A stretch of 64,000 nucleotides of DNA from Desulfomicrobium escambiense DSM 10707 (GTDB taxonomy: Bacteria; Desulfobacterota; Desulfovibrionia; Desulfovibrionales; Desulfomicrobiaceae), in NCBI RefSeq assembly GCF_000428825.1, contig NZ_AUAR01000001.1:1-64000 (forward strand), in the 5' to 3' direction. Position 1 is the first letter of the stretch; each line of letters opens with the position of its first letter. Made by a program: the position numbers and the translations under genes. Shown in pieces: positions 34,309-47,384 of this stretch. The notes under the pieces were generated by a model, which worked only from the letters and a program-made list of their open reading frames with translations, did no database searches and was not told where the DNA came from.

Positions 34309-35940
34309 TCAGCAGGGAAGGGCCTGGGTCCCGCAGACAAGCCAGTCGATGGACCGGCCCGTGCGCAGCCCCGTGTCGATGAGCCAGTCCGGCGGGATGC
34401 GTCCGCTCTTGCGGGCGTTGGAGATGGCTGCGGCCGAGACGTTCAGGAAGGACGCCAGCTCCCGGTCCGTGCGTGCGCCCGAGGCCTGCCGCAGGCGCTC
34501 GATGACCATCGGGGCCGTGCGCAGGCCCACCTGGCCGGAGATGTCCCGCACCACGGCGTACATGCGCGGCTCGCCGTAGAACGTGTCGTTGAACACGAGG
34601 CGGGTCAGAACCGTCGAGTACTCGCCGGCCTGGTTGCGGATGCGGCATTCCAGATGCTGCTCGCGGTGTTCGCGCAGGGCGTTGTGCATGGCCTGGCGGA
34701 CCTTGGGCAGGTCCTCGGCGTGGAGCAGGTCCAGCACGGGGCGCATGTCCAGGGTGTAGGCGTCGAAGGCCTCGGGCCGTCCGAAGATCGACGGGTTCAG
34801 GGTCTGGGCCGAACGGCGCAGGATGCGGCCCTGGTCGTCGGTGACCACGACCACGTCACCCTCGCCGCCGCGCAGCTGCTCCATGAAGGCGTTCTCCTGC
34901 AGGACCTTGGCCGAGATGTCCTGGGCGATGCCCAGCAGCCCGATGACCTCCTGGCGGTCGTCGTCGAAAATGGGCCGGCGGATGACCCGGTACCAGACCC
35001 GCGGGTCCGTCAGGTGGGGCACGGCCGGGTGGAGGAGCTCCTGCTTCTCCTCGAAGACCTTGATGGCCGCCTCGATGGGGAAGCGGGCCTGGCGCGGTTC
35101 CAGGAAATCGTATTCCGTGCGGTCGATGACGTCGTGGCGGGCGCGGCCGTAGGCCTGCAGGTAGGCCTGGTTGGCGGCCACGATGCGCAGGTCCCGGCCG
35201 CAGACCCAGGCCAGGTCGGGCAGGGCGTCGACGATGCGCGTGAACTCGCTGGCCAGCTTGGACGAGAACGGGAAGGGGCGCTCCTGGAAGTAGCCGCTGT
35301 AGGCGCGGATGCGGCCTTCGGCGTCCCGGATGGCCTCGGCGCTGTACCACAGGGTCAGGGGTGAGCCGTCTTTGCGGCGCAGGGTCACGGCGCCGTTTTC
35401 CACTTCGCTGCGTTCGTTGAGCTGGTTGACGATGCGCCGGCGCGAGGCGGCGGTGTAGTAGAACTGCCGCGCCGGGCGGCCGACCAGTTCGTCGCGCGAA
35501 TAGCCGCAGACGCCGCACAGGGCCGGGCTTGCGGCTTGGATGATGCCGCTGGGCAGGACCGTGAAGCCCATCTCCCGGCCCGGCCCCGTGGACCTGAAGG
35601 TTCCCCAGGCCAGGATCGCGATGCCGTCGCTGGTTGGGACGGCCGCGCACTTCCAGTTCACGTGGCGCGTGCCCGCACCGTCGGGCAGGACCACGCGCAG
35701 CCGGAATTCTCGCACCGGCGGGCGGTCGTCGCCAGGGGCCTCACGTTCCCGGCCGCGGACCATGGATCGAAGCTCCTCCGTGATGTTCCCGGGCGCAAGG
35801 GCGCCGAGCGGGGTGTTGCCCATTTCCCGCAGGGTGCTGTTGGCGTAGAGCACGTCGCCGTCCTGATTCATGACCAGGGCCGGGTCCGGCATGCTTTCGA
35901 GACGGGGCGCATAGAACGCGACGAGATCGGAGCTGTTCAT
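34309..35940 (-). CDS. Multi-PAS sensor with C-terminal CI-type helix-turn-helix
   Basis: This 543-aa cytoplasmic protein has about four PAS-like domains: 10-110, 120-235 (with the PAC-like end LRRKDGSPLTLWYSAEAIRD), 245-365 and 370-480. The last 60 residues form a phage CI-repressor-like HTH (RTDRELASFLNVSAAAISNA). There is no kinase or GGDEF module, so it looks like a one-component sensor-regulator. It is divergent from a FadL-type porin, and an inverted repeat lies directly upstream of its start, suggesting it controls itself and the porin. The PAS ligand is unknown. Confidence 0.83.
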   Translation of the reverse strand: MNSSDLVAFYAPRLESMPDPALVMNQDGDVLYANSTLREMGNTPLGALAPGNITEELRSMVRGREREAPGDDRPPVREFRLRVVLPDGAGTRHVNWKCAAVPTSDGIAILAWGTFRSTGPGREMGFTVLPSGIIQAASPALCGVCGYSRDELVGRPARQFYYTAASRRRIVNQLNERSEVENGAVTLRRKDGSPLTLWYSAEAIRDAEGRIRAYSGYFQERPFPFSSKLASEFTRIVDALPDLAWVCGRDLRIVAANQAYLQAYGRARHDVIDRTEYDFLEPRQARFPIEAAIKVFEEKQELLHPAVPHLTDPRVWYRVIRRPIFDDDRQEVIGLLGIAQDISAKVLQENAFMEQLRGGEGDVVVVTDDQGRILRRSAQTLNPSIFGRPEAFDAYTLDMRPVLDLLHAEDLPKVRQAMHNALREHREQHLECRIRNQAGEYSTVLTRLVFNDTFYGEPRMYAVVRDISGQVGLRTAPMVIERLRQASGARTDRELASFLNVSAAAISNARKSGRIPPDWLIDTGLRTGRSIDWLVCGTQALPC

Positions 35941-38558: not shown

Positions 38559-39479
38559 ATGATCGTGCGTTTCCTCCTTTTTTTTCTCCTGTCCTGCCTG
38601 TTCGCGTGTTCGGAGGACGAGCCCGTGGTCAAGGTGGACATGTCGAGGGTGGAGAGCGTCGCCCCCCCCGGGACGACGGAAGCCATCACGTACGCCTATC
38701 TGCCCCAGTATTCCCATTCCGTCTCCTTCGAACGTCACCGCAGGCTGCTGGAATATCTGCGCCACAAGACCGGGCTTTCCCTGCGCCAGATATTCCCCAA
38801 TACCTTCGCCGAGCACATCAAGATGGTCGAGAGGGGCGAGATCGACATCTCCTTCACCAATCCCTTCGTCTACATCTCCCTGGCCCGTCTGGGTTCGGAG
38901 GCCTTCGCCCGCATCGTCGAGGCCGACACCGGCGCGGACTTCCAGGGCCAGGTCATCGTGCGGGCGGACAACCCGGCCATCAACCGCCTGGAGGATTGCC
39001 GGGGCAAGAGGCTCATCGCCGTGGACCCCAATTCCGCCGGCGGCTATCTCTACCCCATGGGCCTTTTCTACGACCACGGCATCACCCGCCAGGATTTCCA
39101 CGAAGTCTCCTTCGCCACGGGTTCCGGCGGCCGCCAGGAGGCGGTCGTGCTGGCCGTGTATGCGGGGGCCTACGATGTCGGCACCATCCGCAAGGGAACC
39201 TTGGACGTGGTGCGGGACAAAATCGACCTGGACCAGATACGCGTCCTGGCCGAAAGCCGGCCCTATCCGGGCTGGGTCTATTCCGCGCGCAAGGGGTTCG
39301 ACCCGGTCGCCAGGGACAAGATCGCCAAGGCCATGCTGGGGTTGCAGATCAGCAATCATGATCATGCGAAGATTCTCTCGGCTGCAGGCATGATCGACAT
39401 CATCCCCGCCCGCGATGAGGACTTCCGCCCCATCCGCGACCTGATATCGCGCCTGCATCTGAACGAGAATGCGCAATGA
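38559..39479 (+). CDS. PhnD-like phosphate/phosphonate-type substrate-binding lipoprotein
   Basis: This 306-aa protein of the PhnD/PhnX binding-protein family has a lipoprotein-like signal (FLLFFLLSCLFAC; Cys after a hydrophobic run). Family stretches are YLPQYSHSVSFERHRRLLEY, GEIDISFTNPFVYI and LEDCRGKRLIAVDPNSAGGY. No permease or ATPase follows. Instead its stop overlaps a membrane histidine kinase by four bases (ATGA), so it probably serves as a periplasmic ligand sensor for that kinase rather than for transport. The ATG at 38559 has CAGGAG upstream; an in-frame GTG lies two codons earlier. Confidence 0.87.
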   Translation: MIVRFLLFFLLSCLFACSEDEPVVKVDMSRVESVAPPGTTEAITYAYLPQYSHSVSFERHRRLLEYLRHKTGLSLRQIFPNTFAEHIKMVERGEIDISFTNPFVYISLARLGSEAFARIVEADTGADFQGQVIVRADNPAINRLEDCRGKRLIAVDPNSAGGYLYPMGLFYDHGITRQDFHEVSFATGSGGRQEAVVLAVYAGAYDVGTIRKGTLDVVRDKIDLDQIRVLAESRPYPGWVYSARKGFDPVARDKIAKAMLGLQISNHDHAKILSAAGMIDIIPARDEDFRPIRDLISRLHLNENAQ

Positions 39480-41509
39480 CGGGCCGCATCTCCCGCCTGA
39501 AATTCGAAACCAAGCTGAACCTGGGCATTATAGCCATCGTCCTCGGCATGGCCGTTTTCCTGCTGCCCGTCGTGGCGCGCATGACGTCCTCGGCCCTGGT
39601 GGCGGAGAACAAGCTGCGCGGAGCGGCCCTGGCCGAGAGCCTGGCGGCCAGGGCCGTCAACCCGCTCCTGTCTCAGGATTACCTGACCCTGCGCAACATG
39701 GTCGGGGAGACAGGGGACGTGGTCTACGCCTTCGTCATGAACGCGGACGACCGGGTCGTCACCCATTCCTTCATCAAGGGGTTTCCCGTGGAGCTCATCG
39801 CGGCGAATGTCGTGGCGAGCGGAGAAAAGGTCAGGGTGCAGCTCATCGATACCGGCGAGATTTTCATCTATGACTTCGCCGCGCCCATCCTCGTTTCGGG
39901 CGAGCGCATCGGCACGGTCCGCGTAGGCCTGTCCAAGTCGCGCCTGAGCGCCACCACCAAGCAGTTCATCTCCGCCCTGGCCACCATGTTCGGCGGTGTC
40001 CTGCTGGCCGCCATGGCTCTCGGCAGCGTTTTCGCCCGCACGGTGACGCGGCGGCTGGCGCGCTTGCGCTCCCACGCCGAGGAACTTGTCGGCGGGAGCC
40101 TCGACAATCTTTCCGTCCTGCCCGGCGAGCATTTCTGCTGGGAGATCATGAGCTGCAACGAAAAAAGCTGCCCGGCGCACCACGACCTCGTGCGCAGGTG
40201 CTGGCTGGTGCCCGACACCAAGTGCGCCGGCCATGCCTGCAAGCTCGGCCCCAAGCCCGCCAGCTGCCGGGACTGCCCGGTCTTCCTGCAGTCCGTCGGC
40301 GACGAGATCCAGGACCTGGCCGAGTCCCTCGACTTCATGGCCTTCACCCTGCGCGACCACATCCGCGGGCTGCGGCAGGCCGAGCAGACCCTGACCAACC
40401 AGCAGCGGCTCCTGTCCACGGTGCTGGACATGAATCCGGACCTCATCTCCCTGGTGGACACGCGCATGATCTACCAGACCTGCAACCGGGCCTTCGCCCA
40501 GAGCGTGGGCAGGAGCGTGGAGGAGATACAGGGCCTGAACGACTTCCATCTCTTCCCCGAAGACGAGGCCGAGCGCCGCAACCTCGAAGGCCGCGAGGTG
40601 CTGCTCACGGGCGGCCGCGTGGACCGGCAGGAAAAGGTGGAGGCTCTGGGCGGGGTCAAGTGGTTCCATGTGGTCCAGATCCCGGTGCAGGACGAGTCCG
40701 GCCGCATCGTGGGGCTTTTGCGCATGGACCGGGACGTCACGGACATCAAGGAGTACGAGCAGCAACTGATCCAGGCCCAGAAGATGGAATCCATCGGCAA
40801 GCTGGCCGGGGGCGTGGCCCACGAGATCAACACGCCGTTGGGGATCATCCTCGGCTACGCCCAGCTCCTCAAGGAGGACGCGCCCGTCGACAGCCAGCTC
40901 AGCCAGGACCTGGCCATCATCGAGAAGCAGACCAAGGTCTGCCGCAAGATCGTGGCCGATCTCCTGGGCTTTTCCCGGCAGGGCGAATCCGAGAAGCGCG
41001 AGATGTGCTTCAACAACTCCGTCATGGAGGCCATTTCCCTGGTCCGGCATTCCTTCGCCCTGGATCATGTGGACATCGTGACCCGTCTGGACGACAGCTT
41101 TCCCATCATTTACGGCGATCCCGAGAAGCTCAAGCAGATCTGGATCAATCTGCTGACCAACGCCAAGGACGCCATGCCCGAGTCCGGCGGCGTCATCGTG
41201 GTCAGGACCAAGCTCAAGACGCCCCAGGGCATCGTCACGCTGGAGGTGGCCGACAGCGGGTCGGGCATCGACGAGGCGACGGCCAAGAAGATCTTCGACC
41301 CCTTCTTCACCACCAAGTCCGTGGGCAAGGGGACGGGGCTCGGGCTTTCCGTGTCCTTCGGCATCGTCAAGGACCACATGGGGGACATCCGGGTGGACAG
41401 CCCCCTGCCGGAGGACTTCGACCTGCCGCCGCTGCCGGCCGGGGCGACCAGCGGTCCGGGGACGATTTTTACGGTGGACATCCCTCTGGACCACTGCACC
41501 TTTCCCTGA
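39476..41509 (+). CDS. Membrane sensor histidine kinase with 8-Cys insert and PAS domain
   Basis: Order of parts in 677 aa: membrane helix (17-36), periplasmic sensor domain (37-163), second helix (165-188), short HAMP-like segment, a Cys-rich insert (Cys 221, 227, 232, 242, 250, 255, 264, 267) beginning CWEIMSC, PAS domain (about 310-425), HisKA with H449 in AGGVAHEINTPLG, and HATPase_c with N, G1 and G2 boxes (DSGSGID, GKGTGLGLSVSFG). The Cys insert resembles the two-CW type and could bind metal or an Fe-S cluster just inside the membrane. The partner regulator is the single-domain receiver encoded next. Confidence 0.9.
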   Translation: MTGRISRLKFETKLNLGIIAIVLGMAVFLLPVVARMTSSALVAENKLRGAALAESLAARAVNPLLSQDYLTLRNMVGETGDVVYAFVMNADDRVVTHSFIKGFPVELIAANVVASGEKVRVQLIDTGEIFIYDFAAPILVSGERIGTVRVGLSKSRLSATTKQFISALATMFGGVLLAAMALGSVFARTVTRRLARLRSHAEELVGGSLDNLSVLPGEHFCWEIMSCNEKSCPAHHDLVRRCWLVPDTKCAGHACKLGPKPASCRDCPVFLQSVGDEIQDLAESLDFMAFTLRDHIRGLRQAEQTLTNQQRLLSTVLDMNPDLISLVDTRMIYQTCNRAFAQSVGRSVEEIQGLNDFHLFPEDEAERRNLEGREVLLTGGRVDRQEKVEALGGVKWFHVVQIPVQDESGRIVGLLRMDRDVTDIKEYEQQLIQAQKMESIGKLAGGVAHEINTPLGIILGYAQLLKEDAPVDSQLSQDLAIIEKQTKVCRKIVADLLGFSRQGESEKREMCFNNSVMEAISLVRHSFALDHVDIVTRLDDSFPIIYGDPEKLKQIWINLLTNAKDAMPESGGVIVVRTKLKTPQGIVTLEVADSGSGIDEATAKKIFDPFFTTKSVGKGTGLGLSVSFGIVKDHMGDIRVDSPLPEDFDLPPLPAGATSGPGTIFTVDIPLDHCTFP

Positions 41510-41590
41510 GTGCCTGGTTCTCACGACTGAACGAATCGAACCCGCGCGGTCCGCACCCATCCGGGCCGCGTCTGGAACAAGGAGAAACGC

Positions 41591-41962
41591 ATGGCTTCGA
41601 TCATAGTCCTGGATGACGTTTCCGATGCGGGAGTGCTGGTGAAGAGGATTCTGGAACGCCAGGGTCATCAGGTCACGGCCTTCACCGAAGAGGAGGATGC
41701 CATCCGGCACGTGGCCAAGGGCGGGACCACCTTGGCCATCCTCGACATCAAGCTGAAGAAGATGACGGGCGTGGAGGTCCTGGCCGAGCTGAAGAAGCAC
41801 GATCCCGGCATCCGGGTCATCATGCTGACGGGGTACCCCACGCTGGAAACGGCGCGCGAATCCCTCAAGCTCGGAGCCAGCGAATATTGCGTCAAGCCCA
41901 TCGACAAAGAGGAGCTGGAGTCCAAGGTAGCTGAAGTCCTGAAAAGCGGGCCCCAGGGCTGA
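41591..41962 (+). CDS. Single-domain response regulator
   Basis: This 123-aa receiver domain has the acidic pair in VLDD, the phospho-acceptor Asp in LAILDIKL, the switch Thr in VIMLTGYP and the Lys in YCVKPID. It has no output domain, so it must act by protein contact, probably with a product of the same operon such as the PEP-synthase-like protein or the CheX-like phosphatase. AAGGAG lies upstream of the ATG. Confidence 0.93.
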   Translation: MASIIVLDDVSDAGVLVKRILERQGHQVTAFTEEEDAIRHVAKGGTTLAILDIKLKKMTGVEVLAELKKHDPGIRVIMLTGYPTLETARESLKLGASEYCVKPIDKEELESKVAEVLKSGPQG

Positions 41963-41977
41963 GGCGGGAGGGGCTGC

Positions 41978-44434
41978 ATGATCGCGTCACGTCTGCTGCG
42001 TCACTGGTTCACCCGCCTGCTGGCTCCCAACCGTCATATCCGGGAGAAGTACGAACACTTCAAGGAGTTGCTGCGCAGCGACTCCAGGGCGCTGGACCTC
42101 GTCGCCGACCTCGACGCGCATCTCTACGGGCACGACCCGGCCGACATGGCGCGGATCAGGTTTCTGCTCGGGGAACTGACCCAGGGCGTGGGCGAGATGG
42201 CCGACCGCCTCTGTCTCATGAACCCGCAGGCGTATGAATCCCTGCCCGAGAATCTGGACCGGATCTCCGCGGAGATATCGAGGCTCGTGACGCAACCGCC
42301 TCCCGCCGCGGATCCCCCGTATGTCCTGAGCCTCGACGAGGCCTGCGACCATGCCGGACAGGCCGGGGGCAAGGCTGCCAACCTGTCCTTCGCGCGCCGT
42401 CACGGCGTTCCGACCCCTCCGGGGTTCGTGGTCACGGCCTCGGCCTTTGTCCGCTACCTGCGCGACAATGCCCTGGAAGAGGAGGTCGAACGCCATTTTC
42501 GGGACATATCCCTCTCCAACCACGACGCCATCGTGCGCGTGACCGGGGAGCTGCAGGAGCTGATTCTCGCCGCCGAAGTCCCCTCGGACGTCGCCGCGGA
42601 GATCATGGACGCGCTGCGGAGCAGCGGCCTGGAGGGTCGGCGCCTGGCCGTGCGATCGAGCGCCGTGGCCGAGGACGGGGAGATCTCCTTCGCCGGGCAG
42701 TACGCCAGCGAACTCGACGTGGCCCCCGGCGACGTCCTGGGCGCCTACAAGCGGGTCCTGGCCGGGAAGTACTGCCCCCGCGCCGTGGCCTACCGCGTGC
42801 GGCACGGCCTGACGGACTTCGACACGGCCATGGCGGTGCTGGTCCTGCCCATGGTCCGCGCCCGGGCCGCGGGCGTGGTCTACACCCGCGACCCGGCCTG
42901 CGCCGCGGTGGGCGGGAAGGCCGTGGGCGTGTACGTCGTCGGTGGCCTGGCCGCAAACCTGGTCGACGGTTCGGCCACGCCGGGCAAACACTACCTCTCG
43001 CGGGAGGCGCAGCCGGACATCCTCATGGGCTGCGCCTGCGAAAGCGCGCCGATGGTCGACGACGCCGTGCTGCGGGAACTGGGGGCGTGGTGCATGCGCC
43101 TGGAGAACGTTTTCGACGAGCCTCAGGACGTGGAATGGGCCCTGGACACCGACGGCCTCGTCATCCTGCAGTCGAGGCGCCTCCAGCAGGACGAGGACCG
43201 AGAGGCCTTTTCCTCCGAGGAGGCCAAGGCGGCCCCGCTGCTCATGTCGGAACTGGACTGCGCCTCGCCAGGGGCGGCGTGCGGTCCGGTCTTTCACGTG
43301 GCCTCGGGGGCGGACTTCCGTTCCATCCCGCCGGGTTCCGTGGTTGTGACCGCTTCGCTGCGGCCGGCCCTTTCGCAGTTCCTGGACCGCATCGCCGGCA
43401 TCGTGGCCGGCAGCGGAAGCCGGGCCAGCCACTTGGCCTCCGTGGCTCGTGAGCGCGGGGTGCCCGTCGTGGTGGGGTGCGGACCGGGCGTGCTTGGCGA
43501 AGGGGAGGTGGTGACCGTGGACGGCGGCGCCGGAAAGATCTTTGCCGGCTGCCTGCCGGGCGTCATGGCGCAAAGCCGCGACGTCGAGAGAATGCACGCC
43601 AGAATTCGGGCCGGGAACGAAGACTTGGCCGCCGTGGCGGTCCATCTCGGCCTGATCGACCCGGACGCGGATAATTTCACGCCCGAGGGGTGCCGGTCCC
43701 TGCACGACGTGGTCCGTTTCTGCCACGAGAAGAGCGTGGCCGAGATGTTCTCCCTGGTCGGCAGGGGCGGCAGGGGTTTGGGTCGGTCGCGCAGGCTGGC
43801 CACGGATCTGCCCCTTGTCATGTACGTCCTGGACCTGGGAGGGGGGCTTTCGCCGCAGGCCGGGGGCAAAGGGCCAGTGGACGTCGAGCACTTGGACAGC
43901 GCTCCGCTGCGCGCCATGTGGGACGGGCTGGCCGACGGGCGCGTGACTTGGGACAGCGGCCAGCTGCATGTGGACTGGGAGGAGTTCGACCGGGTCAGCT
44001 CGGGCATCTTTCGCATGGATTCCAGGATTCTCGCCAGCTACGCCATCATCGCCAGGGAATACATGCACCTGAACATTCGTTTCGGATACCACTTTTCCAT
44101 CGTCGACGCGCTGTGCGGCGACACGCCCGGGGCGAATTACGTCAAATTCCGCTTCAAGGGCGGCGGGGCCGCCCTGAACCAGCGCGCCTACCGGCTGATC
44201 TTCGTGCGCGATGTCCTGGAGCGGTTCGGATACGAGACCGTCATCCGGGGGGACATGCTCGACGCGTCCCTGGCCCGCGTGGGCATGGAGGAGACGGCAA
44301 GGGCCCTGCACGCCTTGGGCCTTGTCCTTGCCGTGACGCGGCTCATGGACATCCGGCTCTCGGATGTGCCGCAGGCCAAGCGGGAAGCGGCCTCCTTCAT
44401 GCAGAGCTTTTTTCCGGAGGCCGCCCATGAGTGA
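41978..44434 (+). CDS. PEP-synthase-like phosphotransferase with unusual C-terminal domain
   Basis: This 818-aa protein has a helical N-terminal extension (1-110) and a PPDK/PEP-synthase ATP-grasp domain: GGKAANLSFARRHGVPTPPG, VRSSAVAEDGEISFAGQYAS, the EWA motif near 385 and LQSRRL. A phosphohistidine mobile domain follows with H485 in SRASHLASVARERGVPVVV. The usual PEP/pyruvate-binding barrel is absent. Instead about 290 residues of unknown fold follow, with a conserved-looking block NIRFGYHFSIVDALCGD. This makes it a phosphotransferase of unknown acceptor, like the dikinase-related rifampin phosphotransferases in layout. It overlaps the phosphatase gene by eight bases. Confidence 0.82.
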   Translation: MIASRLLRHWFTRLLAPNRHIREKYEHFKELLRSDSRALDLVADLDAHLYGHDPADMARIRFLLGELTQGVGEMADRLCLMNPQAYESLPENLDRISAEISRLVTQPPPAADPPYVLSLDEACDHAGQAGGKAANLSFARRHGVPTPPGFVVTASAFVRYLRDNALEEEVERHFRDISLSNHDAIVRVTGELQELILAAEVPSDVAAEIMDALRSSGLEGRRLAVRSSAVAEDGEISFAGQYASELDVAPGDVLGAYKRVLAGKYCPRAVAYRVRHGLTDFDTAMAVLVLPMVRARAAGVVYTRDPACAAVGGKAVGVYVVGGLAANLVDGSATPGKHYLSREAQPDILMGCACESAPMVDDAVLRELGAWCMRLENVFDEPQDVEWALDTDGLVILQSRRLQQDEDREAFSSEEAKAAPLLMSELDCASPGAACGPVFHVASGADFRSIPPGSVVVTASLRPALSQFLDRIAGIVAGSGSRASHLASVARERGVPVVVGCGPGVLGEGEVVTVDGGAGKIFAGCLPGVMAQSRDVERMHARIRAGNEDLAAVAVHLGLIDPDADNFTPEGCRSLHDVVRFCHEKSVAEMFSLVGRGGRGLGRSRRLATDLPLVMYVLDLGGGLSPQAGGKGPVDVEHLDSAPLRAMWDGLADGRVTWDSGQLHVDWEEFDRVSSGIFRMDSRILASYAIIAREYMHLNIRFGYHFSIVDALCGDTPGANYVKFRFKGGGAALNQRAYRLIFVRDVLERFGYETVIRGDMLDASLARVGMEETARALHALGLVLAVTRLMDIRLSDVPQAKREAASFMQSFFPEAAHE

Positions 44435-45464
44435 AGCGTACAGGGCGACCTGGGTCACGGACCAGCTGGCCGTGGGCGCCGCGCCCATGAGCTACGAACA
44501 GCTCGATTACCTGCGGGCGGCCGGAGTCGGGGCCATCCTCAACCTCTGCGGCGAGTTCTGCGACCTGCACGACATCGAGTGCGCGGCAGGATTCGAGGTC
44601 TACCACATGCCCCTGGCCGACGAGGAGGCGCCCGAGCTGGAGGAGCTGGAAAAGGCCCTGGCCTGGCTCGACGAGGCCATCTATCTGGGCAAGAAGGTGC
44701 TCATCCATTGCCGGCACGGCATCGGGCGTACCGGTACCGTGCTCAACGCCTACCTGCTGCGCCGGGGCCTGGGGCACCGGTTGGCCTGGTTCAAGCTGCG
44801 CACCCTGCGCTCCAAGCCGGCAAACTTCTCGCAGTGGTGGACCATCCGCAAATACGGGCGGCAGAGCCCCAAGCTGACCGTGCGGGAGCCGTCGCTGGAG
44901 ATGCACAAGGCCGTGGACCTCAGCCCGTTCTTTCGCGACTACGAGGCGCTGCAGGCCAGGGTCGACGACGAGGCGGGCAGGCCTCTGGAAATGTGCGGCC
45001 GGGACCACGCCAGATGCTGCAGCACGCCCATTCAGTTGACCATGGTCGAGGCCGTGTACGTCACCCAGAGGATGAACGTCGTGCTCAGCAGCGAAAAGCG
45101 CCTGGAGGTAATTTCGCGGGCCGTGGAGACGGCGCGGCGCGAACGCCTTGCGGCCAGCCAGGTCAGCGCCGAGGAGTTCTGCCTGTCCGACGCCGACGCC
45201 CGGTGTCCGCTGCTGGAGAACGGGTCGTGCATCCTCTTTTCCTCCCGTCCCCTGCAATGCCGTTCCTTCAGCATGAACGAAGAAAAGGCAGGTAGACTCT
45301 GGGAAACGGTGCTCGCCCCCGCACTGGAAGCCTTGTCCCTGGAACTGTGGTTCGCTTTCGCCGGCACCATCGCACGGGGGGCCCTGCCGCATTTCGCGCT
45401 GGCGGATGTGGTTTCGGGGCGTTATGTACAAACGCTGTTCCACCTCATGGTGAAATCGCAGTGA
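44427..45464 (+). CDS. Dual-specificity protein phosphatase fused to YkgJ-type Cys-cluster domain
   Basis: Residues 1-150 or so of 345 form a dual-specificity/tyrosine phosphatase domain with the active-site loop HCRHGIGRTG (nucleophile Cys95) and the general-acid region MPLADEEAPELEE. Residues 190-330 carry a YkgJ/Fe-S-type Cys pattern (CGRDHARCCSTP, FCLSDADARCPLLENGSC, RPLQCRSF). The start overlaps the previous gene and has GGAGG upstream. The fusion suggests phosphatase activity under metal or redox control. A possible target is the phosphorylated product of the neighbouring phosphotransferase. Confidence 0.88.
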   Translation: MSEAYRATWVTDQLAVGAAPMSYEQLDYLRAAGVGAILNLCGEFCDLHDIECAAGFEVYHMPLADEEAPELEELEKALAWLDEAIYLGKKVLIHCRHGIGRTGTVLNAYLLRRGLGHRLAWFKLRTLRSKPANFSQWWTIRKYGRQSPKLTVREPSLEMHKAVDLSPFFRDYEALQARVDDEAGRPLEMCGRDHARCCSTPIQLTMVEAVYVTQRMNVVLSSEKRLEVISRAVETARRERLAASQVSAEEFCLSDADARCPLLENGSCILFSSRPLQCRSFSMNEEKAGRLWETVLAPALEALSLELWFAFAGTIARGALPHFALADVVSGRYVQTLFHLMVKSQ

Positions 45465-45513
45465 CACGTCGCAGTTTTTCATCACCTCAAGACAATGAGA
45501 CAGGTGCATCAAT

Positions 45514-45990
45514 ATGAATGATACGATAAAGGGGATCATCGCGCAGTTCGTGGAGGCAACGACATCGGTCCTGCAGACCATGGCCATGACGGAGGCCAAG
45601 GCAGGAACGCCCTTTGTGAAGCAGGATGCCAGCGCAAAGGGAGACATTACGGGCGTCATTGGCTTTTCCAACCCCAAGGGCAAAAGCAGGGGGACGATGT
45701 CGCTGACGTTCACGGCCGCAACTGCACTGGGTATCGTCAGCGCGATGATCTATGAGGAGCAGACCGAGATCAACGATGCGGTGACCGACGCCGTCGGGGA
45801 ACTGACCAACATGATCTCCGGACAGGCGCGCAAGGGCCTTGTGGGCATGGGCATGATTTTCGAAGGCGCCATCCCTTCGGTCATCACCGGCTCCGGTCAC
45901 ATCATCCGCCACGTTTCCACGAGCGCCGTACTGGCCATACCATTTGAAACGCAGTACGGACCGATGATGGTGGAGGTCTGCTTCAGCTGA
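45514..45990 (+). CDS. CheX-like chemotaxis phosphatase
   Basis: This 158-aa CheX/CheC-type protein has the phosphatase helix with a conserved Glu and Asn (DAVGELTNMISGQARK). The family strands surround it (GVIGFSNPKGKSRGTMSLTF). CheX removes phosphate from CheY-like receivers. It lies 49 bases after the phosphatase gene, so it probably dephosphorylates the single-domain receiver of this operon. Confidence 0.88.
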   Translation: MNDTIKGIIAQFVEATTSVLQTMAMTEAKAGTPFVKQDASAKGDITGVIGFSNPKGKSRGTMSLTFTAATALGIVSAMIYEEQTEINDAVTDAVGELTNMISGQARKGLVGMGMIFEGAIPSVITGSGHIIRHVSTSAVLAIPFETQYGPMMVEVCFS

Positions 45991-46080: not shown

Positions 46081-47238
46081 ATGAAGCGCAGGGTATATTT
46101 CATCGAGGGAGACGGGATAGGAAAGGAAGTATGGGCCGCCGGCCGCCCGGTTCTGGACAGGGCGGTGGAGGTTGCCTATGGCGACGGACGCGGATTCGAG
46201 TGGGTGGAACTGCTGGCGGGCAAGAAGGCCTTTGCCGAAACGGGCTCCTACCTGCCCGAATCGACGCTCGAAGCCCTCAAGGGTGCCGACCTGGCCATGA
46301 AGGGGCCCCTGGAGACCCCGGTGGGCAAAGGGTTTCGCAGCCTGAACGTGACGCTCAGGCAGACGCTCGACCTCTTCGCCTGCATCCGTCCAATCCAGTA
46401 TTTCAAGGGCATTGAAAGCCCGGTCAAGCACCCCGAGCGGGTGGACATGGTCGTGTTCCGCGAGAACACCGAGGACGTCTACGCGGGCATCGAGTGGCAG
46501 GCGGGCAGCCCCGAGGCCAAGCGGCTCATCGCCTTCCTCCGTGACGAGATGGGCGCAAACGTCGACGCCGAGAGCGGCATCGGCATCAAGCCCATGACGG
46601 CCAAAGGCTCCAAGCGCCTCATCCGGCGGGCCATCCAGTTCGCCCTGGATCAGAAGCGCCGCAGTGTGACCATGGCCCACAAGGGCAACATCATGAAGTT
46701 CACCGAAGGCGCCTTCCGCAACTGGGGATACGAACTGGCCGCCGAGGAGTTTGCCGGCCGCCTCGTCCTGGAAGGCCAGGACTGCTGCCCTCCCGGCGCC
46801 CTAGTGCTCAAGGACAGGATCGCCGACGCCATGTTCCAGGAGGTGCTCATCCGCCCCGAGAACTACGATGTCATCGCCACGCCGAATCTGAACGGCGACT
46901 ACCTGTCCGACGCCCTTGCCGCCCAGGTCGGCGGCCTTGGCCTGGCCCCCGGGGTCAACATGAGTTCCGAACTGGCCTTCTTCGAGCCCACCCACGGCAC
47001 GGCCCCGACCATCGAGGGCAAGGACCTCGCCAACCCGGGCAGCCTCATTCTCTCTGGCGCGCTCATGCTCGATCACGTCGGCTGGCACGAGGCCGCAACG
47101 AAAATTCGCAAGGCCGTGGAACTGGCCATTGCCGACGGACGCGTAACCGTCGATCTGGCCTCGCAGATGACGGGCGCTCGCCAGGTTGGATGCGTTGAGT
47201 TCGGACAGATCCTTCTGGCCAATCTGGAACGGATTTAG
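46081..47238 (+). CDS. icd: NADP-dependent isocitrate dehydrogenase
   Basis: This 385-aa enzyme of the isocitrate/isopropylmalate dehydrogenase family converts isocitrate to 2-oxoglutarate. Signatures are GDGIGKEV, the substrate-binding LRQTLDLFACIRPI, ENTEDVYAGIEW, TMAHKGNIMKFTEGAF, the metal site NLNGDYLSDALAAQVGGLG and the cofactor loop EPTHGTAPTIEGKD. The sequence follows the bacterial NADP type; the cofactor is not proven. The ATG at 46081 has GAGAGGAGA upstream and was preferred over an open frame 27 codons longer. Confidence 0.9.
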   Translation: MKRRVYFIEGDGIGKEVWAAGRPVLDRAVEVAYGDGRGFEWVELLAGKKAFAETGSYLPESTLEALKGADLAMKGPLETPVGKGFRSLNVTLRQTLDLFACIRPIQYFKGIESPVKHPERVDMVVFRENTEDVYAGIEWQAGSPEAKRLIAFLRDEMGANVDAESGIGIKPMTAKGSKRLIRRAIQFALDQKRRSVTMAHKGNIMKFTEGAFRNWGYELAAEEFAGRLVLEGQDCCPPGALVLKDRIADAMFQEVLIRPENYDVIATPNLNGDYLSDALAAQVGGLGLAPGVNMSSELAFFEPTHGTAPTIEGKDLANPGSLILSGALMLDHVGWHEAATKIRKAVELAIADGRVTVDLASQMTGARQVGCVEFGQILLANLERI

Positions 47239-47357: not shown

Positions 47358-47384
47358 AAGCCCGCTCCTTTCCGGAGCGGGCTT
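47358..47384 (+). terminator. Intrinsic terminator downstream of icd
   Basis: AAGCCCGCTCC (47358-47368) pairs perfectly with GGAGCGGGCTT (47374-47384) around a 5-nt loop, followed by TTTTCG. Confidence 0.85.

Follow-up and report, generated by a model that had tools for sequence, protein, structure and literature searches.

A conserved five-gene signalling cassette of Desulfovibrionales with a PEP-synthase-like phosphotransferase and a possible role in sulfur-oxyanion transport

The first 64,000 nucleotides of contig NZ_AUAR01000001.1 of Desulfomicrobium escambiense DSM 10707 (hereafter the window, meaning that whole stretch) contain six same-strand genes that combine a two-component system with a phosphotransferase and two phosphatases. 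Five of these genes form a conserved cassette. They encode a PhnD-like periplasmic binding lipoprotein, a membrane histidine kinase, a single-domain receiver, a phosphoenolpyruvate (PEP)-synthase-like phosphotransferase (PEPS), and a dual-specificity-type phosphatase fused to a cysteine cluster (DSP). The sixth gene, for a CheX-like phosphatase, is a genus-level add-on. We tentatively propose that the cassette may control the uptake (or release) of sulfur oxyanions by a TSUP permease through reversible phosphorylation. The genes are linked across many genomes and their active sites are conserved, PEPS relatives linked to the permease have precisely lost the phosphohistidine domain, and in our sample the permease is confined to genomes with dsrA.

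Conservation of the cassette

PEPS was matched in 88 of 101 relatives. Regions were taken from 50 of those genomes and from the window's genome; 37 of the 88 were left out of the regions, their best matches being weaker or fragmentary. We added 79 loci from named public genomes and 12 phylum loci picked by DSP. Some counted loci are cut by contig ends, and the non-cassette loci include one with a partial DSP (L123) and one cut by a contig end (L104). L201 and L138 are probably one locus, and the lectin-type loci L204 and L205 probably equal L105 and L125. A binomial test of 7 of 20, which assumes a background of 5%, is given no weight.

All five core genes are present in 11/13 loci of the window's own genus, in 31/42 loci from other members of the order (Desulfovibrionales), and in 6/22 loci from other orders. 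This core gene order is conserved beyond chance, in agreement with an initial annotation of the window, made from its letters, that had treated the genes as a unit. The co-occurrence search proposed there thus finds the five-gene set both within Desulfovibrionales and in other orders. In contrast, CheX, which that annotation had placed in the core, lies beside the cassette in 10/13 own-genus loci, 0/42 other loci of the order and 0/22 loci of other orders, and so accompanies none of the 64 cassettes located outside the genus. In L046 and L048, two loci of the genus itself, the cassette has neither CheX nor isocitrate dehydrogenase beside it, which indicates that this pair travels apart from it. 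CheX was dropped as a core component on both grounds. The CheX-isocitrate dehydrogenase pair is common to ten own-genus loci, the window's included.

Across a sample of 148 genomes of the phylum, 74 of them with dsrA, the full-length DSP fusion occurs in 14, and a PEPS gene is adjacent in 14/14. Exceptions to the usual form of the DSP-adjacent PEPS are a truncated gene in L200 and genes on the other strand in L204/L205. In 15 of 58 cases a PEPS paralogue gene is immediately preceded by a receiver-like gene.

So, does the sensor serve PEPS? Single-domain receivers often act at a distance, and the receiver could control something else (for example flagella, or transcription via another partner), with PEPS and DSP as co-transcribed passengers, a reading that the five loci keeping PEPS-DSP without the sensor would suit. 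However, in L101, L102, L116, L138 and L072 the sensor genes (PhnD, kinase, receiver) have kept close to PEPS-DSP despite a rearrangement of the two blocks, and the blocks also stay together across orders. Furthermore, divergent PhnD-kinase-regulator sets adjoin PEPS in L082 and L122, possibly as separate recruitments of a similar sensor. We regard the passenger explanation as very unlikely.

Conserved residues of the sensor proteins, receiver and phosphatases

The six genes are closely spaced or overlapping, much as first annotated; coordinates and Pfam families agree (Table 1). The PhnD-like and kinase genes overlap by 4 bp and the PEPS and DSP genes by 8 bp, and gaps of 81, 15 and 49 bp separate kinase from receiver, receiver from PEPS, and DSP from CheX.

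Table 1. Features of the window locus and a PEPS relative elsewhere in the same genome
Feature	Coordinates	Strand	Basis or context
PhnD-like periplasmic binding lipoprotein, 306 aa, proposed oxyanion sensor	38559-39479	+	PF12974, E 3.3e-58
Membrane histidine kinase (sCache_3_2, Cys-rich insert, PAS, HisKA, HATPase_c)	39476-41509	+	Pfam
Single-domain receiver, 123 aa, without output domain	41591-41962	+	PF00072, sole Pfam match
PEPS, PEP-synthase-like phosphotransferase, 818 aa	41978-44434	+	PPDK_N (PF01326) and PEP-utilizers (PF00391)
PEPS C-terminal domain, proposed acceptor/substrate domain in place of PEP-binding barrel	43583-44431	+	
DSP, dual-specificity-type phosphatase fused to Cys cluster, 345 aa	44427-45464	+	Pfam DSP families
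CheX-like phosphatase	45514-45990	+	PF13690, E 2.7e-23
PEPS relative without phosphohistidine domain, 600 aa	G000:C10:122734-124533 (L087)		directly after permease and partner

The PhnD-like protein belongs to the PF12974 superfamily and scores 99.5 bits against a PhnD equivalog cut-off of 261.1, so it is not PhnD itself. Its lipoprotein signal was judged by eye; a lipobox pattern appears in 23/39 PhnD relatives, a count that depends on the called starts and is not used as support. In the kinase, the phospho-acceptor H449 is kept in 40/40 aligned sequences and the HAMP match is just under the Pfam cut-off. The cysteine insert reported for the kinase at the outset holds up, with Cys 221, 227, 232, 242, 264 and 267 invariant (40/40), and its likeness to the two-CW domain (NF045718) is weak, at 25.5 bits for a cut-off of 35. 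Receiver residues D8, D9, D52, T80 and K102 are kept in 41/41 aligned sequences, so both partners have the residues of a two-component pair, and PF00072 being alone in this protein supports the earlier call of a receiver without an output domain.

The DSP carries the HCX5R active-site signature in 43/43 aligned sequences. Its fusion to a cysteine cluster, likewise noted earlier, is borne out by the DSP families and by six cysteines that are present throughout (43/43; Cys 211, 218, 219, 281, 289 and 299, counted from a longer open frame starting at 44364). This Cys-rich end reaches 21.7 bits against the CxxCxxCC family (PF03692), whose cut-off is 23. The ExxN phosphatase motif of CheX (E96/N99) is found in 10/10 sequences, and in the window's genus CheX would shorten the lifetime of the phosphorylated receiver.

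PEPS and its C-terminal domain

PEPS comprises a helical N-terminal domain (~1-110), an ATP-grasp domain (~113-404), a swivelling phosphohistidine domain (~405-530, with H485) and a C-terminal domain (~540-818). Both the ATP-grasp (PF01326) and the phosphohistidine (PF00391) families of PEP synthase and PPDK match it. Across 35 diverse sequences, K132, R226, E232, E386, Q398, R400 and H485 of the ATP-grasp and phosphohistidine domains are invariant, as are H576, D577, R580, H583, H705 and R739 of the C-terminal domain.

In an AlphaFold2 model of full-length PEPS (mean pLDDT 84.5, pTM 0.79), likeness to PEP synthase, PPDK and RPH is confined to residues 112-545; the model's best VIA-align match is RPH 5hv3 (Z 36.9, root-mean-square deviation 3.1, 395 aligned, residues 112-524). 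Modelled alone, the C-terminal domain has a mean pLDDT of 89.1 and a helix/strand order unlike a (beta-alpha)8 barrel. No Pfam family matches this domain at E<=1 and no Foldseek match reaches E<=0.001 (best 2plg_A, E 0.014). Solved-structure profiles give E 0.15 at best, and VIA-align reaches Z 7.7 at best, over 62 residues, with a weak arginine-kinase match at Z 5.4. Foldseek and VIA-align scores of the domain fall within the range of unrelated models. The structure prediction suggested by the initial annotation therefore yields a confident model with no clear fold match, and its view that PEPS lacks the usual C-terminal barrel is upheld by both Pfam and the model. We propose that the domain is an acceptor or substrate domain that replaces the PEP-binding barrel.

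Given that its ATP-grasp and phosphohistidine domains match PEP synthase, PEPS might be a metabolic enzyme, a PEP synthase or dikinase serving gluconeogenesis, whose gene just happens to sit in a signalling operon. We find this highly improbable, for it scores 209.7 bits against a PEP synthase equivalog cut-off of 739.75, the pyruvate/PEP barrel is missing, and the paralogous family is tied to receivers and TSUP permeases. The low equivalog score and missing barrel led us to drop the metabolic assignment. Against the Rph equivalog PEPS scores 156 bits (cut-off 999), and its central phosphohistidine domain departs from the RPH order of ATP-grasp, rifampin-binding and phosphohistidine domains.

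Some PEPS paralogues of ~1060 aa carry a C-terminal extension (L105, L107-L111, L113, L117-L119, L128, L147, L157, L161 and others). In the three scanned, the extension is weakly lectin-like (concanavalin-type), under the Pfam cut-offs, and the window's PEPS has no such end by Pfam. Glycan phosphorylation of the kind carried out by the plant starch dikinase/phosphatase pair was set aside on these two grounds.

TSUP permeases beside cassettes and PEPS paralogues

A TSUP (TauE/SafE-type, PF01925) permease is present in 26/42 of the other cassette loci of the order, and a ~206-aa protein also in 26/42; permease, partner and all five core genes occur together in 24. The permease/partner portion of the locus is on the opposite strand in L068 and L072, and outside the order L197 carries this permease and its partner too. 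The partner has no Pfam family and looks by eye like a membrane protein (e.g. L074:3307-3924). Family membership of the permease is clear, as illustrated by that of L080, with 98.1 bits against a PF01925 cut-off of 32.6. A longer TSUP protein of a different type lies within ~7 kb of the cassette in L099, L114, L172, L199, L202 and L207, above the PF01925 cut-off in 6/6. The presence of the permease and its partner in most of the order's other cassettes suggests that transport is the controlled process.

The association extends to PEPS paralogues. TSUP genes lie <=6 kb from PEPS in 18 of 65 non-cassette loci, 17 of them upstream on the same strand, and in 12 of the 32 non-cassette loci with a full 6 kb of upstream sequence. 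All 22 permeases scanned are PF01925, 21 of them from non-cassette PEPS loci. The chance background, estimated without a control set from the >300 TSUP proteins in 44 genomes given in the accessible part of one survey (PMC5840216), is a few per cent. In ten loci a ~237-aa protein clusters with TSUP and a PEPS paralogue (L159:7300-8010, L168:8215-8904 and eight more), mostly directly between permease and PEPS; the two scanned have no Pfam match.

In the window's genome, a permease orthologue (59% identity) and its partner are found on a different contig; the gene after them encodes a 600-aa PEPS relative that lacks the phosphohistidine domain (Table 1). Such short relatives follow the permease-partner pair in 17/41 permease loci (11 in the window's genus, 3 in another genus of the family and 3 in one further genus), and in all 17 the phosphohistidine-domain positions (~405-543) are without match. 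ATP-site residues, H583 and H705 are all changed in the six that align well, and the loss of the two histidines from these relatives makes it likely, from sequence comparison, that H583 and H705 of PEPS are catalytic. The same genome also holds a tandem PEPS-family triple preceded by genes for a universal stress protein and a TSUP permease (L085, G000:C4:203054-210998); the middle gene of the triple has no PPDK_N match and has lost ATP-grasp motifs while keeping the phosphohistidine and C-terminal domains.

PEPS could instead be a metabolite kinase whose product DSP dephosphorylates, so that activation of the sensor would lead the cassette to make a phosphorylated compound serving as messenger or store. 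The solved PEPS relatives found (PEP synthase, PPDK and RPH, the last a drug kinase) all phosphorylate small molecules, the PEPS C-terminal domain occupies the place of a substrate-binding domain, and a glycan acceptor would be in keeping with the lectin-like ends that some paralogues carry (weak matches under the Pfam cut-offs). Nevertheless, the linked genes encode sensors, receivers and TSUP permeases rather than a visible biosynthetic pathway, and the persistence of relatives without the catalytic domain beside the permease better suits protein contact. We judge this alternative somewhat unlikely.

Association with sulfate or sulfite reduction

The window's genome carries dsrA. Within the phylum sample the permease is found in 24/148 genomes, spread over 13 families, and 24/24 have dsrA; the ~206-aa partner is found in 23 genomes, 23/23 with dsrA, and is always <=2 kb from the permease on the same contig and strand (23/23). 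As a control, 25/47 SulP genomes have dsrA. Hypergeometric P values for co-occurrence with dsrA, which ignore kinship, are 6e-9 for the permease and 0.36 for SulP. Most genomes with the DSP also carry dsrA (12/14), and the other two are metagenome-assembled genomes of 67% and 62% completeness. No copy of the permease was found in seven genomes titled Nitrospirae, Thermodesulfovibrionales or Thermodesulfovibrio.

Some loci lie near genes of a molybdenum (Mo) oxidoreductase, whose best NCBIfam match is the thiosulfate reductase PhsA (512 bits, cut-off 694). It is thus conceivable that what the cassette controls is the respiration of thiosulfate or another sulfur oxyanion rather than sulfate uptake, with sensor, permease and a cytoplasmic PhsA-like Mo reductase forming one system in which PEPS and DSP tune the reductase or electron flow. 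Consistent with this, an iron-sulfur (Fe-S) protein is encoded in 20/76 cassette and 8/41 permease loci, and the Mo subunit in 13/76 and 4/41; examples near the cassette are L200:1566-4141 and L202:17449-19001, both from other orders, and L049-L052. PhnD-like proteins also weakly resemble the sensor part of the tetrathionate kinase TtrS. However, the Fe-S gene is lacking in 56/76 cassette loci, in the sequence examined, and no locus of the window's genus has a PhsA-like Mo or Fe-S gene. Control of respiration is therefore an unlikely account of the cassette.

Proposed mechanism

The conserved unit and the conserved catalytic residues make sensing through lipoprotein and kinase, coupled to an opposed phosphotransferase and phosphatase, the natural reading. 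In this the initial annotation stands; it erred in placing CheX in the core and missed the permease, which is not in the window.

We envisage that the lipoprotein would bind a periplasmic oxyanion, most likely sulfate or thiosulfate, and dock on the Cache domain of the kinase. The kinase, whose residues are conserved, would phosphorylate D52 of the receiver. The receiver would act directly on PEPS, given that it has no output domain and that PEPS paralogues, too, can be directly preceded by receiver-like genes, and would set the balance between PEPS and DSP, as first suggested. PEPS would then autophosphorylate at H485 with ATP, after which the phosphohistidine domain would swing to the C-terminal domain, which would hand the phosphate to an acceptor; here the domain make-up is observed and the chemistry is by analogy with the PEP synthase/PPDK/RPH family. 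DSP, with its conserved active site, would take the phosphate off. Judging by gene linkage, the acceptor may be within the TSUP permease system, perhaps the ~206-aa partner, such that transport would be switched with outside supply. The ligand, the receiver-PEPS contact, the acceptor and the direction of control are what we infer.

Several findings weigh against control of the permease by the cassette. In the window itself no permease is adjacent. The permease was found in 1 of the 14 genomes reached through loci, and the L102 and L116 genomes, both with a full cassette, yielded no copy of it. Across the phylum, DSP and permease co-occur no more than by chance (4/14 DSP genomes, P 0.17), and kinship could contribute to the dsrA association. 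PEPS and DSP stand alone at L053, L054, L056, L060 and L062, and in genomes G006 and G012 a short PEPS relative adjoins the permease and no close full-length cassette PEPS was found. The role of TSUP in sulfur-anion transport in these bacteria is itself predicted, the PEPS acceptor may be either a protein or a small molecule, and the PhsA-like and Fe-S neighbours fit thiosulfate as well as sulfate, which leaves thiosulfate a possible substrate.

A broader generalization, which we consider doubtful, is that PEPS represents a new class of receiver-controlled regulatory phosphotransferase, built from ATP-grasp and phosphohistidine domains and a new acceptor domain, that phosphorylates a transporter component and is reset by a dedicated phosphatase. 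The many paralogues, each often with its own TSUP permease, would then constitute a layer of phosphorylation-controlled sulfur-anion transport in sulfate reducers, and the phosphohistidine-less relatives would be non-catalytic permease partners.

Neighbouring genes in the window

An HDOD gene lies upstream of the PhnD-like gene in divergent orientation. Isocitrate dehydrogenase (46081-47238) is directly 3' of CheX, and a strong terminator-like hairpin occurs at 47358-47384. Further away, the product of 34309-35940 combines PAS domains with a DNA-binding end of the phage CI-repressor type. A promoter and terminator scan of the region gave 1 promoter-like and 4 terminator-like sites, versus 2.1 and 7.2 in shuffles.

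Comparison with known systems

The initial annotation knew of no described system with this gene set, and we likewise found no description of it in the openly accessible literature, most subscription papers lying outside the search. Parts of the cassette nevertheless have counterparts. Sensor kinases coupled to periplasmic binding proteins, such as those of the TtrS type, are one; in both cases a PhnD-like binding protein adjoins a kinase with a periplasmic domain, and here the binding protein is a separate lipoprotein, the kinase has a cysteine insert and the receiver has no output domain. In plants, reversible glucan phosphorylation sets the dikinases GWD and PWD against the phosphatases SEX4 and LSF2, and thus similarly opposes a dikinase of the superfamily to a dual-specificity phosphatase. 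Unlike that system, the window's proteins have no carbohydrate-binding domain, and nothing here points to a glycan target.

The neighbouring permease is PF01925, as are TSUP/CysZ-type permeases of sulfate reducers. The published sources used are PMC5840216, PMC7531388 and PMC4844700. According to the accessible part of Marietou et al. 2018 (PMC5840216), TSUP proteins occur in all 44 genomes studied and were proposed as possible primary sulfate transporters, TSUP clade B is said to span six phyla, and the sensing of outside sulfate and shut-off of high-affinity uptake by sulfate reducers are described as physiology with no named regulator; that part mentions no regulatory gene cluster for TSUP. 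In D. vulgaris, sulfate reduction is reported, in the accessible portion of these sources, to continue after deletion of the three SulP genes. The cassette may supply named candidate genes for this missing control of sulfur-compound uptake in sulfate reducers.

PEPS shares with PEP synthase and PPDK an ATP-grasp domain followed by a swivelling phosphohistidine domain, with the catalytic residues kept, and differs from them in its unrelated alpha/beta C-terminal domain, its extra helical N-terminal domain and its linkage to signalling genes. RPH, in the accessible part of its description (PMC4844700), follows the same two-step logic with a different acceptor domain, and by analogy to it H485 is expected to take phosphate from ATP and then to swing across to the C-terminal domain. 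In RPH, however, the phosphohistidine domain comes at the end, after a centrally placed acceptor domain, and no resemblance between the two acceptor domains was found. If our reading is true, the cassette would give this superfamily, so far associated with metabolism and antibiotic resistance, a regulatory role and a new acceptor domain.

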